Assembly: GCF_003670115.1 (NCBI RefSeq)
Contig: NZ_QQTY01000003.1
Span: 62,001 to 126,000 of the forward strand
Direction of reading: 5' to 3'
DNA length: 64,000 bases
From: Natronorubrum halophilum
GTDB taxonomy: Archaea; Halobacteriota; Halobacteria; Halobacteriales; Natrialbaceae
Every line of letters starts with the position of its first letter. Position 1 is the stretch's first letter. Shown here one piece after another: positions 12,225 to 62,173 of the stretch. The notes beneath the pieces were generated by a model. That model ran no database searches. It worked only from the letters and a program-made list of their open reading frames with translations, and had not been told where the DNA came from. Position numbers and translations under genes: made by a program.

Positions 12225-12267
12225 AAGATAGTGGAATATGTATGTAATCTCTAGTCATAAACAAATT

Positions 12268-13009
12268 GGCACTGTCTAGTTGAGCTAGTTTGAGGAACGA
12301 GCAGGTCATTGAGTTTGTTGGACCAAATGCTCGCAGACCTGCTCAGCGAGTCCTACGACGCGGATCTAGAAGAAACTTGGGAGAACGAGCGGACGGCGAC
12401 GCCCGTCAGGGCGTTCGCCGTCCGTCTCCACGCCACCGGTTGTTCGCTTCGGGAGACAACAATCATTCTTGCTGAATTAGGCGTTGAACGCTCTCATGGG
12501 GCAGTTTGGAACTGGGTACATCGGCTGGCTGACAGCGGGCGCGACCCGCCTGAGGCGCAGCCGAAGCGGGTCGCGGTTGACGAGACCGCTGTCAAGATCA
12601 ATGGCGAGTGGTCTTGGGTGTACGCTGCAATAGACACCGAAACGAAGCTGATTCTTGATGTCGCAGTATTCGGACAACGAGGCACCGATCTAGCCGCTGC
12701 ATTCCTGCATCGACTCACCGAGAAACACGATCTCTCCGACACGGTGTTTCTCGTCGATGGCTACGGCTACCTGACTGCCCTTTCTCGATTATGGTTGGGC
12801 GGCCAGCTCGACTACGCCGAGAGAAACCTGCTCGAAAAGTGGTTTCACACCTTCAAAATGCGAGTCGACCGCTTCCATAACTCGTGGGTGAGCAGTCGGG
12901 CGAGCGTCAGAGGGTGGCTTGAGCAGTTCGTACACTACTATAACACACAACGACCTCACCAGTCACTCAACGGACAGACGCCAGCGGAGGTGCTAAACTA
13001 GACAGTGCC
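12268..13009 (+). mobile_element. IS6-family insertion sequence
   Basis: This is a 742-bp element with terminal inverted repeat GGCACTGTCTAGTT and a single transposase gene. The size and organisation fit IS6-type elements of haloarchaea. A decayed copy lies at 59305-59639. Confidence 0.9.
12309..13001 (+). CDS. IS6-family DDE transposase
   Basis: The 230-residue protein has an N-terminal helix-turn-helix region (LRETTIILAELGVERSHGAV) and the DDE core: Asp in RVAVDETAVKI near residue 91, Asp in VFLVDGYGYL near 149 and Glu in NLLEKWFHTFKMR near 174. The C-terminus carries HYYNTQRPHQSLNGQTP. No frameshift is seen, so it may be functional. The stop lies eight bases from the end of the element and overlaps the right terminal repeat. 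Confidence 0.95.
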   Translation: MSLLDQMLADLLSESYDADLEETWENERTATPVRAFAVRLHATGCSLRETTIILAELGVERSHGAVWNWVHRLADSGRDPPEAQPKRVAVDETAVKINGEWSWVYAAIDTETKLILDVAVFGQRGTDLAAAFLHRLTEKHDLSDTVFLVDGYGYLTALSRLWLGGQLDYAERNLLEKWFHTFKMRVDRFHNSWVSSRASVRGWLEQFVHYYNTQRPHQSLNGQTPAEVLN

Positions 13010-13071
13010 AGCGTTTCCATCGAGTCAATAGACCATAAAGCTCACAATGTGATCCGACTGAATATCCGGTC

Positions 13072-13725
13072 ATGGAGCAGCGAAACCGATCAACGAATCG
13101 TCGAATCTCACGTCTGATCGCTGCGGCCGTGGGCCTGGTAATTGTTATCGTTGGTCTCGGAATAGTTCGCTCCCGTCGCGATCCATCGGCGTGTCCGTAT
13201 CACTCCCGGTTCGCGCTCTCATTACCGCGTCCGTTCGTAAAGCGACGGCGACTTCGTCGAGCGCTCGAACCACAGTCCGGTGAACGGATCCTCGAGATCG
13301 GACCAGGGACCGGGTATTACACTCTTGCTGCCGCAGAATGGATCACTCCTGGTGGAACGCTCGACGTGATCGACACCCAACAGAAAATGATCGGTCGTCT
13401 CGAACAGCGAGCAACCGAACAAGAGATCACAAATATCACCTCTCAACAGGGTGACGCACAACACCTTCCATACGACGATGACGCATTCGATGCTGCGTAT
13501 TTGGTGACCGTGCTCGGCGAGGTTCCAGATCAAGACGCAGCGCTGCGCGAACTCTCTCGAGTGGTGAAATCTGGTGGGCGCGTGGTTGTTGGCGAAACGC
13601 TCCCGGATCCACACATGGTGCCAGTTGACTCGCTTCGCGATCGTGCCGCAAATGCTGGGTTCGAATATGATTGCCGATTTGGCTGGACTGGTGGCTATAT
13701 CGCCCGCTTTCGCGTTCCGTTCTAA
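13072..13725 (+). CDS. Membrane-anchored SAM-dependent methyltransferase (transposon passenger)
   Basis: The 217-residue protein has one N-terminal membrane helix (LIAAAVGLVIVIVGLGIV, about residues 15-33) followed by a class I methyltransferase domain with motif I ILEIGPGTGYYTLAAA, acidic loop VIDTQQKMIGRLE, and motif IV region AYLVTVLGEVPDQDAALREL. It resembles UbiE/Methyltransf_11 enzymes, but the substrate is unknown. The whole gene lies between the IS6 copy and its solo end, inside the target duplication, so it was carried as passenger. Confidence 0.85.
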   Translation: MEQRNRSTNRRISRLIAAAVGLVIVIVGLGIVRSRRDPSACPYHSRFALSLPRPFVKRRRLRRALEPQSGERILEIGPGTGYYTLAAAEWITPGGTLDVIDTQQKMIGRLEQRATEQEITNITSQQGDAQHLPYDDDAFDAAYLVTVLGEVPDQDAALRELSRVVKSGGRVVVGETLPDPHMVPVDSLRDRAANAGFEYDCRFGWTGGYIARFRVPF

Positions 13726-13729
13726 AGTT

Positions 13730-13845
13730 CGTCGTTCCGATTCGTGCACCTCATCGTGCAACTGCTCGGCGCAGTCGCGGATGATCGGGGCGTACGCCTG
13801 GGCACCGGGTATCGGGACGATTCCCAGTCTTACGGTTTCCCTCAT
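13730..13845 (-). pseudogene. 5' fragment of a captured gene
   Basis: The minus strand starts with ATG directly against the solo terminal repeat and reads MRETVRLGIVPIPGAQAYA and then about 20 more coding-like residues before running into the methyltransferase 3' end. It looks like the N-terminus of a longer protein cut off when the passenger segment was formed. The family could not be fixed. Confidence 0.5.
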
Positions 13846-13945
13846 CTAGACAGTGCCAACAAATTCGAGATGGGGAATTTTTGACATATTCTCTCGCATC
13901 AAGGCATAGAAGTTGAGATGGCCATCTCGTTGGAGAATGCTGGTA

Positions 13946-14587
13946 TCAGACGAGTTCCGTAATGACCTTCGTTTCGATTTTCCGTAAGTGTTCACCGATC
14001 GTTCCCGCAGAGATATTCACTTGATCCGCAAGGTCGCGGAGGGTCGCGCGCCGCGGCATCTCGTAATAGCCCTCATCGATCGCTAGCTCCAACAGTTCTT
14101 GCTGACGATCAGTCAGCAGCGACGCGAGCTGACGCATATCTGGGTGATACTCGCCGATACCCTCGAGCACAATCTGAATCCCGTCTGGAATTTCCGCGAT
14201 CGCCTCTCGGATCTTCTTGTCCTCTCCGATCGTTGTTACCCGAAGCCCACCCTGATCGGTGTACTCCATCGGCCAGTCCACGACGATCTCATATCGTCGG
14301 AATATACTGAGGAGGTCGGTCATGAGGGCATTTGCTCGAAAATGGAGGTAGACAAGCCCGTCCGATGCCTCAGATCGCTCGACCGATAGCACCTCTGGAT
14401 CCGCCTCTAGTACTTCCGTACTCTGTTTGAGGTCACCACGGAGTTGATACAGTGCTACGCCGGTTCCGTCATCCAAGAGATTGATGTAGTGAATCGCCTC
14501 ACCGTTCACTGCTCGATCGGTAGCGGACTCACCGTTCGGACAGCGTTCATCGTCCATTTGCGAAATGACGAACGTGACATACCTCAT
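13946..14587 (-). CDS. HTH_10 (bacterio-opsin activator type) transcription regulator
   Basis: The 213-residue protein has a ligand- or signal-sensing N-terminal part and a C-terminal HTH_10 domain (about residues 158-213) with LTDRQQELLELAIDEGYYEM, RRATLRDLADQVNISAGTIG and the closing EHLRKIE. This is the architecture of haloarchaeal Bat-like regulators. It begins about 110 bases away from the passenger transposon and is divergent from the methyltransferase at 14787, which may be a target. Confidence 0.9.
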   Translation of the reverse strand: MRYVTFVISQMDDERCPNGESATDRAVNGEAIHYINLLDDGTGVALYQLRGDLKQSTEVLEADPEVLSVERSEASDGLVYLHFRANALMTDLLSIFRRYEIVVDWPMEYTDQGGLRVTTIGEDKKIREAIAEIPDGIQIVLEGIGEYHPDMRQLASLLTDRQQELLELAIDEGYYEMPRRATLRDLADQVNISAGTIGEHLRKIETKVITELV

Positions 14588-14716
14588 ACGTTCGATCTGC
14601 TCTTTCTGTCCATCGAGTCCGAGGACGACTGTATTCGGTCGCTCCGTTTAACTACGAGTTGCTCGGGTTGACTCTGTCGCGGACAGTGGCGCATCGATGG
14701 GAAAGTACGCAGTGTG

Positions 14717-14727
14717 AATATTTAAAC
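14717..14727 (+). promoter_or_regulatory. Archaeal TATA-like element before the methyltransferase
   Basis: AATATTTAAAC lies in the gap between the divergent HTH_10 regulator and the methyltransferase. A start site about 27 bases downstream would give a leader of about 40 bases to the ATG at 14787. Confidence 0.4.
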
Positions 14728-14786
14728 CCGCCTCAGATGTAAGGCGCTATTCGCATGCGTAGCCGGGCCGTCCGTATCACCAATGT

Positions 14787-15551
14787 ATGTCGAGCAGCAA
14801 AACTGAAAGCAACACCACGAAACGAACGGAGACGAAATCATCAACTCCCGGTCCGCCGATCGTCACTGCGCTCTCTAAGCGCTTCACTATCGCAGAGCAC
14901 CGGCGATATCTCGCACGCGATCTCGAGGGGACGGTACTGGATCTCGGCGCGGGGAGCGGTGCAATGGTTCCGTACCTGCAAACAGCAGTCCGGCGTGAGC
15001 CAGCACTCCACCTGCATGCAATCGAACCGGATCCCGACAGGCGACGGCAGGCAAAGCGAATCGCCAGCGCACACGATCTGGACATCCACCTGCGATCGGG
15101 ACGAGCCGAATCACTGCCCTATGCGGACGATACGTTCGACGTGGTCATCGCCTCCGCGGTGTTCTGTACGGTACAGGACCCGTCTCGGACCCTCGAGGAA
15201 GTCCACCGCGTCGTGAAGCCGAATGGCGAATTTCGATTTCTCGAACACGTTCGGTCGGGCGGTCTACACGGCTTCATCCAGGACGCGCTAACACCGCTCT
15301 GGAAGCGGATCGACGACGGCTGCCATCTCAACCGCCGAACGGACGACTGGATCGCAGCAGGTCGCTTCGATCTCGACGAGGTTGAAACGCTGAGTACCGG
15401 TGTTAGCCCGTCTAGACCCTTCGTGCGCGGAACTGCCACGCCAGTGAGCCCCACCGAGACAGACAGCCGAACCGAGAGGAGGGAGTGTACCCCTTCGGCT
15501 ACGGTGACATCCTCGAGTGATGATGGTGTCAGGAGACGTACTGAAACATGA
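14787..15551 (+). CDS. Class I SAM-dependent methyltransferase
   Basis: The 254-residue protein has motif I VLDLGAGSGAMVPYL, an acidic loop HAIEPDPDRRRQA, and motif FDVVIASAVFCTVQDP followed by LEEVHRVVKPNGEFRFLEHV. This order resembles UbiE and METTL7-like methyltransferases. The first 25 residues are polar and disordered, and the last 40 are low-complexity (Ser, Thr, Arg), which may reflect a 3' frameshift. Its stop overlaps the start of the next small membrane protein (ATGA), so they are coupled. Confidence 0.82.
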   Translation: MSSSKTESNTTKRTETKSSTPGPPIVTALSKRFTIAEHRRYLARDLEGTVLDLGAGSGAMVPYLQTAVRREPALHLHAIEPDPDRRRQAKRIASAHDLDIHLRSGRAESLPYADDTFDVVIASAVFCTVQDPSRTLEEVHRVVKPNGEFRFLEHVRSGGLHGFIQDALTPLWKRIDDGCHLNRRTDDWIAAGRFDLDEVETLSTGVSPSRPFVRGTATPVSPTETDSRTERRECTPSATVTSSSDDGVRRRTET

Positions 15552-59304: not shown

Positions 59305-59639
59305 GGCATCGTCTAGTTAGCGTGATTTGAGAAGCGAGCAGGTCGTAGAGTTAGTTTGGATCTCTCTGACGCAGAGTTTCTCGTCGGTGATGCTGGATAT
59401 CTGACTGCACTCTCTCGCTTCGGATTGGGCGGTCACCTCGACTATGTCAACCGAAGCCACATCGAAAGGTGGTTTCATACCCTCAAAATGCGGATCGACC
59501 GCTTCCATAATTCGTAGGTTGGTAGTCGGGCAAGCGTTAGAGAGTGGCTTGAACAGTTCGCACACTACTATAACACACAGCGACCGCACCAACCACTCAA
59601 CTAACAACCGCCAGCGGAGGTGCTAAACTAGACAGTGCC
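59305..59639 (+). mobile_element. Decayed IS6-family element
   Basis: Left end GGCATCGTCTAGTT differs in two bases from the 12268 element; right end CTAGACAGTGCC is perfect and ends at 59639. In between only the second part of the transposase remains, with FLVGDAGYLTALSRFGLGGH, ERWFHTLKMRIDRFHNS followed by a stop, and HYYNTQRPHQPLN followed by another stop. It is a dead copy. Confidence 0.85.
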
Positions 59640-61985: not shown

Positions 61986-62173
61986 AGCACTCGAAGATTG
62001 CACACCGCTCAGTAGTATAAAACCCCTCTCGTCGGCGTATCAGTTGTCGTTTCGACGAGGGTCGGTGTTCGACGGTCGAGCGAACCCGAAACGAACGTTC
62101 CTCGAACCAACTCCACGACGGACGCACCGAGAGATACCAAAGAATCTCGCGGTTCCGGTACGTATACTGTCGT

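Follow-up and report, generated by a model that had tools for sequence, protein, structure and literature searches.

Apparent use of a foreign MITE tip as the second end of a single archaeal IS6-type element

Introduction

Can one insertion sequence (IS) of the IS6 type carry a neighboring gene to a new site by pairing one of its own ends with an end borrowed from another element? The question is raised by a locus in a 64-kb window of haloarchaeal DNA, the whole stretch analyzed here, which corresponds to positions 62001–126000 of the 708,130-bp replicon C3 in a genome of 4.67 Mb. By DNA search, the relatives of this genome are Natrialbaceae, e.g., Natrinema, Haloterrigena, and Halostagnicola. 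In bacteria, resistance genes are moved to a large extent by IS6-type elements such as IS26 and IS257. The compound transposons of the family are termed pseudo-compound; they always contain two directly repeated ISs, and their cargo is transferred at resolution (PMC7986276). Archaeal IS6 elements are without any experimental data, and the family membership of this branch is disputed (PMC6807381). An earlier note on the locus described an IS and a passenger gene enclosed together by an 8-bp duplication and regarded their movement as a single unit as proven.

Results

The IS at the left of the locus is complete. It spans 742 bp (12268–13009, + strand) and carries perfect 14-bp terminal inverted repeats; its left end (12268–12281, +) reads GGCACTGTCTAGTT exactly, as does its right end on the opposite strand (12996–13009, −). 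Length and ends agree with the published description of archaeal IS6 elements, which comprises 700–890 bp and near-perfect ends that start with GG and have a G at position 7 (PMC7986276, PMC6807381). An uninterrupted frame (12309–13001, +) encodes an IS6 family transposase of 230 amino acids that matched NF033587 in a profile search (E=3.7e-58; 196.6 bits against a cut-off of 125), with PF13610 (DDE_Tnp_IS240) likewise above its cut-off. Within its DDE catalytic core lies the E--F---K-R signature, which has been reported for the archaeal IS6 branch (PMC6807381). The IS6-type identity proposed earlier from the DNA is borne out by both profiles. Other haloarchaeal IS6 copies, one of which is annotated as ISHtu2 family, are 82–87% identical to this IS. 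A relative of the IS on replicon C3 has GCCTGCAT on both sides, the 8-bp target duplication expected of the family; at 12268–13009, the 8-bp duplication encloses a larger unit and not the IS alone.

This larger unit, designated unit A, is 1590 bp in length and consists of the IS, a methyltransferase gene, two gene scraps, and the tip of a MITE. The octamer AACAAATT lies directly outside the first end (12260–12267) and again outside the third end (13858–13865), precisely where the earlier note had placed it. Beyond the second end, which is the perfect right end of the IS, the octamer is AGCGTTTC; it differs from AACAAATT and is without a match, and this right end was thus bypassed. The third end (13844–13857, −) reads GGCACTGTCTAGAT, with one mismatch to GGCACTGTCTAGTT. 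What had been described as three copies of one terminal repeat is therefore two exact copies and a third that carries a mismatch and does not come from this IS. Matches to the terminal repeat with up to two mismatches number five in the 64-kb window, compared with 0.17 expected. The remaining two belong to an IS6 remnant of 335 bp (59305–59639), the left end of which reads GGCATCGTCTAGTT and the right end of which is perfect; its outer octamers are unmatched.

The AACAAATT target of unit A is intergenic. On its left lies a CAAX protease gene that is 87% identical to a Halomontanus plasmid, and on its right a regulator and another methyltransferase that are 85% identical to a Natrinema plasmid. 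The latter two genes (13946–15551) are divergent; the regulator has an HVO_0513 N-terminal domain and HTH_10, and the pair is kept together on several haloarchaeal plasmids (Natrinema, Haladaptatus, and Halocatena). By position, this second SAM methyltransferase is unrelated to the passenger. Many remnants of IS6 elements and MITEs are scattered over replicon C3.

A scan for further ends in the same genome identified the source of the third end. A second GGCACTGTCTAGAT lies on contig C6, where it borders a gene-less element of 231 bp; this element resembles the solo end of unit A along 30 bp, apart from three transitions. The degenerate 30-mer of the MITE left end, GGCACTGTCTAGATRAGGRAAACCGYAAGA, matches 13828–13857 with 0 mismatches. 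When up to three mismatches were allowed, the 30-mer matched in 20 of 125 family genomes, and a reversed 30-mer gave no matches among the same 125. The MITE copies that we examined are mostly 229–232 bp in length, and many are flanked by identical octamers. Full copies, of 231–232 bp, carry these 8-bp duplications, and their tips are accordingly ends on which an IS6-type transposase acts. The second tip of the MITE reads GGCACTGTCTAGTT(A)AGCG..., such that its right end and the ends of the IS have their first 14 bp in common. By sequence comparison, the solo end is recognizable as the outer tip of a haloarchaeal MITE with IS6-like tips: the right end of unit A (13828–13857, −) consists of the 30 outermost bp at the left end of a MITE of ~231 bp (GGCACTGTCTAGATGAGGGAAACCGTAAGA). 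These 30 bp are all that remains of the MITE at unit A, and sequence resembling a phosphomannomutase gene adjoins them at 13827.

The MITE origin of the solo end bears on the possibility that unit A is the remnant of a pseudo-compound transposon whose second complete IS was worn down to its tip. The IS6 family is well known for such transposons, which have two ISs and an 8-bp duplication (PMC7986276), and an arrangement in Halostagnicola larsenii resembles one. There, two shortened IS6 copies (positions 1–367 and 143–742) flank a GNAT acetyltransferase gene (NZ_CP007057.1, 313582–315932), and the outer octamers, TCATTCCG and TCATTCCA, agree at 7 of 8 positions; it is a different and weaker case. 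Compared with the two-IS layout, unit A holds one IS, and its opposite end is 30 bp of MITE sequence, which contradicts this origin for unit A and makes it very improbable. Over their last 12 bp, the IS right end and the MITE tip agree fully, so that, judged by sequence, this one junction may also be recombinational in origin. Past bases 12–17, the IS's own ends (GGCACTGTCTAGTTGAGCTAG on the left, GGCACTGTCTAGTTTAGCACC on the right) diverge from the solo end, and we consequently rejected a further copy of this IS, reduced to a remnant, as the source of the solo end.

The passenger is a mosaic. A spacer of 24 bp (13010–13033) separates the IS from a captured segment (13034–13716, +); a chromosomal locus of a related genus, free of ISs, shows 85% identity to this segment. 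The gene in this segment (13072–13725, +) encodes a class I SAM methyltransferase of 217 amino acids (UbiE/Methyltransf_11 by profile match) with an N-terminal hydrophobic stretch. Its reading frame is intact, as had been stated, and dN/dS relative to the closest homolog is ~0.2–0.36. Homologs with ~50% identity occur in dozens of family genomes, and an 82% homolog found in the family search occupies a chromosomal locus with no IS end nearby. A search of bacterial and archaeal contigs for the methyltransferase donor returned distant relatives only, and no second copy of the passenger was found at the DNA level in the genome itself and 60 relatives. The donor search proposed in the earlier note thus led to a related IS-free locus but not to a donor copy.

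Between the methyltransferase gene and the MITE tip, the earlier note had recognized one gene fragment with its ATG abutting the solo end. This reading was rejected, because the region comprises two gene pieces and the tip itself. The first piece (13736–13807, −) derives from an unrelated haloarchaeal gene and comes from within its 5′ part (83% identity over 72 bp at three loci). The second (13789–13827, −) is an internal piece of 39 bp (85% identity) that abuts the MITE tip exactly; its assignment to a phosphomannomutase/GlmM-like gene is only probable, as it rests on 39 bp and the conserved motif LGIVPxPGxQAYA. The two pieces overlap at GGCGTACGCC, which is a typical microhomology joint. The supposed start codon sits inside the MITE tip, where the usual ATAAGG reads ATGAGG. 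Judged from these matches, the frame is an accidental one that spans three unrelated pieces.

We also searched for the site before insertion, as the earlier note had suggested, and found no empty site. When the joined flanks were compared with 10 genomes of the genus, only the two flank halves of unit A itself matched. Relatives of the right flank among 125 family genomes, and of both flanks among 72,556 plasmids, lie on different replicons and are never adjacent; the flank homology in these genomes and plasmids ends at the flanking genes. A donor copy or a second copy of unit A was likewise absent from the genomes and plasmids searched.

To what extent could the matching octamers have arisen by chance? 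We surveyed 2.39 Mb of sequence from replicons picked for their richness in IS6 elements: C3 and C6 were covered in full, and two H. turkmenica replicons and a Natrinema megaplasmid in large part. All ends with up to three mismatches were collected, and outer octamers were compared for convergent pairs within 60 kb. Identical outer octamers were found for 14 of 959 pairs, compared with ~0.015 expected for random octamers and 0 of 959 at a shifted control position. Shuffling of the octamers gave an expectation of 0.28, which overstates chance because the duplicated octamers are retained. At 7 of 8 matching positions, the 2.39-Mb set contained a single pair, as chance predicts. The 14 pairs consist of nine MITEs (231–232 bp), two simple ISs, and three units in which an IS is followed by cargo and a foreign solo end. 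A second sample, a 450-kb Halostagnicola plasmid, contained no unit with an exact octamer.

These counts address the simplest objection, namely that an IS and a MITE scrap merely lie close together and have an octamer in common by chance. IS6 and MITE remnants are indeed numerous on replicon C3; nevertheless, 14 pairs were observed where 0.015 were expected, three of the 14 are units of this type, and the shifted control gave none. Two further units of like anatomy also argue that the arrangement is no accident, and we consider coincidence scarcely credible. The case that the earlier note had named as fatal to its claim, a third repeat left by a deleted second IS together with a coincidental octamer, is thus at odds with both the MITE tip and the survey.

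The two additional units answer the earlier suggestion to look for other ISs followed by a solo end, and both carry other cargo. Unit B (1942 bp; octamers TTTCCGCT) extends from C3:706338 across the origin to 149. It contains an intact IS6-type element, a halocyanin-like gene (706784–707482; 232 amino acids), and a right-end scrap of 112 bp that is only 83% identical to the unit's intact IS. Unit C (octamers CCCACGGA) lies at 835502–839754 of Natrinema NZ_CP082248.1 and contains an intact IS, a gene for a hypothetical protein of 676 amino acids without a Pfam match, a broken gene, and the solo end GGCACCGTCTAG. An IS630-like element later inserted into the CTAG of this IS6-type tip and so split the solo end, which reads GGCACCGTCTAGAG across the insertion. 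In all three units, the left end of the IS is outermost and its perfect right end is skipped. A search of the 2.39-Mb survey for mirror units, with the right end outermost, gave none. The solo ends are foreign to the adjacent intact IS in all three units, which is at variance with a duplication of that IS and its subsequent truncation.

Other arrangements of IS6-type ends were encountered in these replicons. At 431570–432694 of NZ_CP082248.1, an IS6 element and a MITE lie 42 bp apart, with GTATAGAT as the octamer beyond the right end of the IS and its reverse complement, ATCTATAC, beyond the left end of the MITE. This pattern is as after an IS6-type inversion, or it reflects a palindrome. At C6:37386–37413, two IS6-type tips stand head to tail, with GGCACAGTTTAGTT directly outside GGCACTGTCTAGTT. 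A perfect IS6-type tip at C6:90942–90955 is followed by sequence unlike the IS and MITE ends encountered here (AGAATACGGTGCTATTC) and may represent a solo end or a further type of element.

How did unit A come to lie within its duplication? Our best explanation, to which we assign a probability of about 0.6 on the evidence of three units, is transposition of an IS6-type unit through the left end of the IS and a borrowed MITE end. The transposase of the IS, which was presumably the one that acted, would have paired its own left end with the MITE tip and skipped its own right end. Everything between the left end and the tip would then have been inserted into AACAAATT, of which 8 bp became duplicated. 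Because IS6 elements are thought to transpose copy-in via a cointegrate, the most likely course is that the whole unit was copied in and formed a cointegrate; recombination between the two copies of the unit in this cointegrate would leave the present arrangement. The MITE may already have been truncated when unit A moved. If it was complete at that time, the same mechanism would apply and the truncation would have come later.

The earlier claim of movement as a single unit draws support from the bracketing duplication and from the two additional units, but "proven" is too strong a word, as no empty site was found and a duplication around an IS, cargo, and an end can also arise by conservative integration of a translocatable unit beside a pre-existing element or by cointegrate resolution. 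In the first of these routes, the MITE would have generated the AACAAATT duplication on insertion, and the IS transposase would later have integrated a circular translocatable unit of IS and cargo, conservatively and precisely, at the other tip of the MITE, most of which was then deleted. The duplication would belong to the MITE, and IS and cargo would never have moved as a unit with that end. The 14 bp common to the MITE right end and the IS ends are compatible with such an event, and conservative integration of a translocatable unit is the preferred reaction of IS26 when two identical copies are present (PMC7885326). However, for IS26-family members, this reaction depended on transposases that were identical and on a long stretch of identical DNA at the reacting end; between IS1006 and IS1008, it failed despite identical 16-bp ends (PMC7885326). 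The MITE has no transposase gene and has only its tip in common with the IS. In addition, each of the three units would require an extra, truncating deletion. We regard this route as unlikely.

A second route would assign the duplication to the IS alone. Copy-in by the IS would have formed a cointegrate at AACAAATT with an IS copy at each border, and a deletion between the MITE tip and 12 identical bases of the far IS copy would have followed. IS6 cointegrates are resolved by recombination (PMC7986276). As the MITE tip and the right end of the IS agree in their outer 12 bp, an indistinguishable product would result. This history demands recombination within 12 bp in unit A and ≤17 bp in unit B; it is hardest to apply to unit C, whose solo end departs from the IS right end at base 6, with 5 bp left. 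Deletions at other points of the far copy would also be expected to leave longer remnants that match the intact IS exactly, but the 2.39-Mb survey contained none with a matching octamer. Accordingly, we give this route, too, a low probability.

Discussion

From our analysis, a lone archaeal IS6-type element is apparently able to take a foreign tip, in this case from a MITE, as its second end. Taken together with two similar units, one in the same archaeon and one in a related archaeon, unit A suggests that IS6-type elements pick up neighboring genes by using borrowed ends. Units in which a perfect 8-bp duplication encloses a single archaeal IS together with a solo end of foreign origin provide natural evidence on transposition in the archaeal branch. 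They point to staggered insertion by 8 bp, tolerance of a second end with ~12–14 bp in common, and a possible asymmetry between left and right ends. They also suggest that the many MITEs on haloarchaeal megaplasmids serve as second ends for gene capture. A broader generalization is more tentative, and we hold it at short of even odds: archaeal IS6 transposases may regularly pass over the right end of their element and combine its left end with whatever compatible tip lies downstream, be it from a MITE, a decayed IS, or a near-match. A single IS would then be a one-sided device for gene capture, for which the MITEs of haloarchaeal megaplasmids offer ready-made second ends. Such behavior would amount to genuine transposition of units, in a family that is regarded as transferring cargo solely via pseudo-compound structures or circles.

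Among known systems, ISEcp1 of the IS1380 family uses a fixed IS end together with a distant, end-like sequence beyond its other end, and the resulting duplication surrounds IS and cargo. The likeness is functional: in all three units, a constant IS end is outermost, the other end is bypassed, and a duplication encloses IS plus cargo. ISEcp1 encodes an IS1380-family transposase whereas an IS6 transposase is present here, which makes the relation one of analogy and not of membership. Furthermore, the distant end of ISEcp1 is a weak chance match, whereas the solo ends described here are genuine tips of mobile elements (a MITE or an IS scrap), except possibly that of unit C. TIME-COMPs generate duplications of 5 bp, as opposed to 8 bp here. 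These Tn3-derived MITE composites also place MITE ends in a composite that moves cargo; they differ in that their ends are of the Tn3 type and that two MITEs, with no IS, make up the unit (PMC13367494).

Within the IS6 family, ISfinder lists two MITEs of 227 and 336 bp, one of which is MITEHarch3 (PMC7986276, PMC6807381). By its description, MITEHarch3 resembles the 231-bp MITE in being haloarchaeal, transposase-less, and assigned to IS6. ISDsp3 is the single IS6 member listed with a passenger gene (Varani 2021, PMC7986276); according to that listing, it is the IS that carries the gene, whereas the cargo of unit A lies beyond the right end of a complete IS. The closest systems are the pseudo-compound transposons and translocatable units of IS6/IS26, which have in common with unit A an IS6-type transposase, 14-bp ends starting with GGCACTGT, an 8-bp duplication, and cargo located next to an IS that is intact (Varani 2021, PMC7986276; Harmer & Hall, PMC7885326). 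Those systems employ two directly repeated full ISs and move their cargo by cointegrate resolution or as a circle, whereas unit A consists of one IS and a borrowed end.
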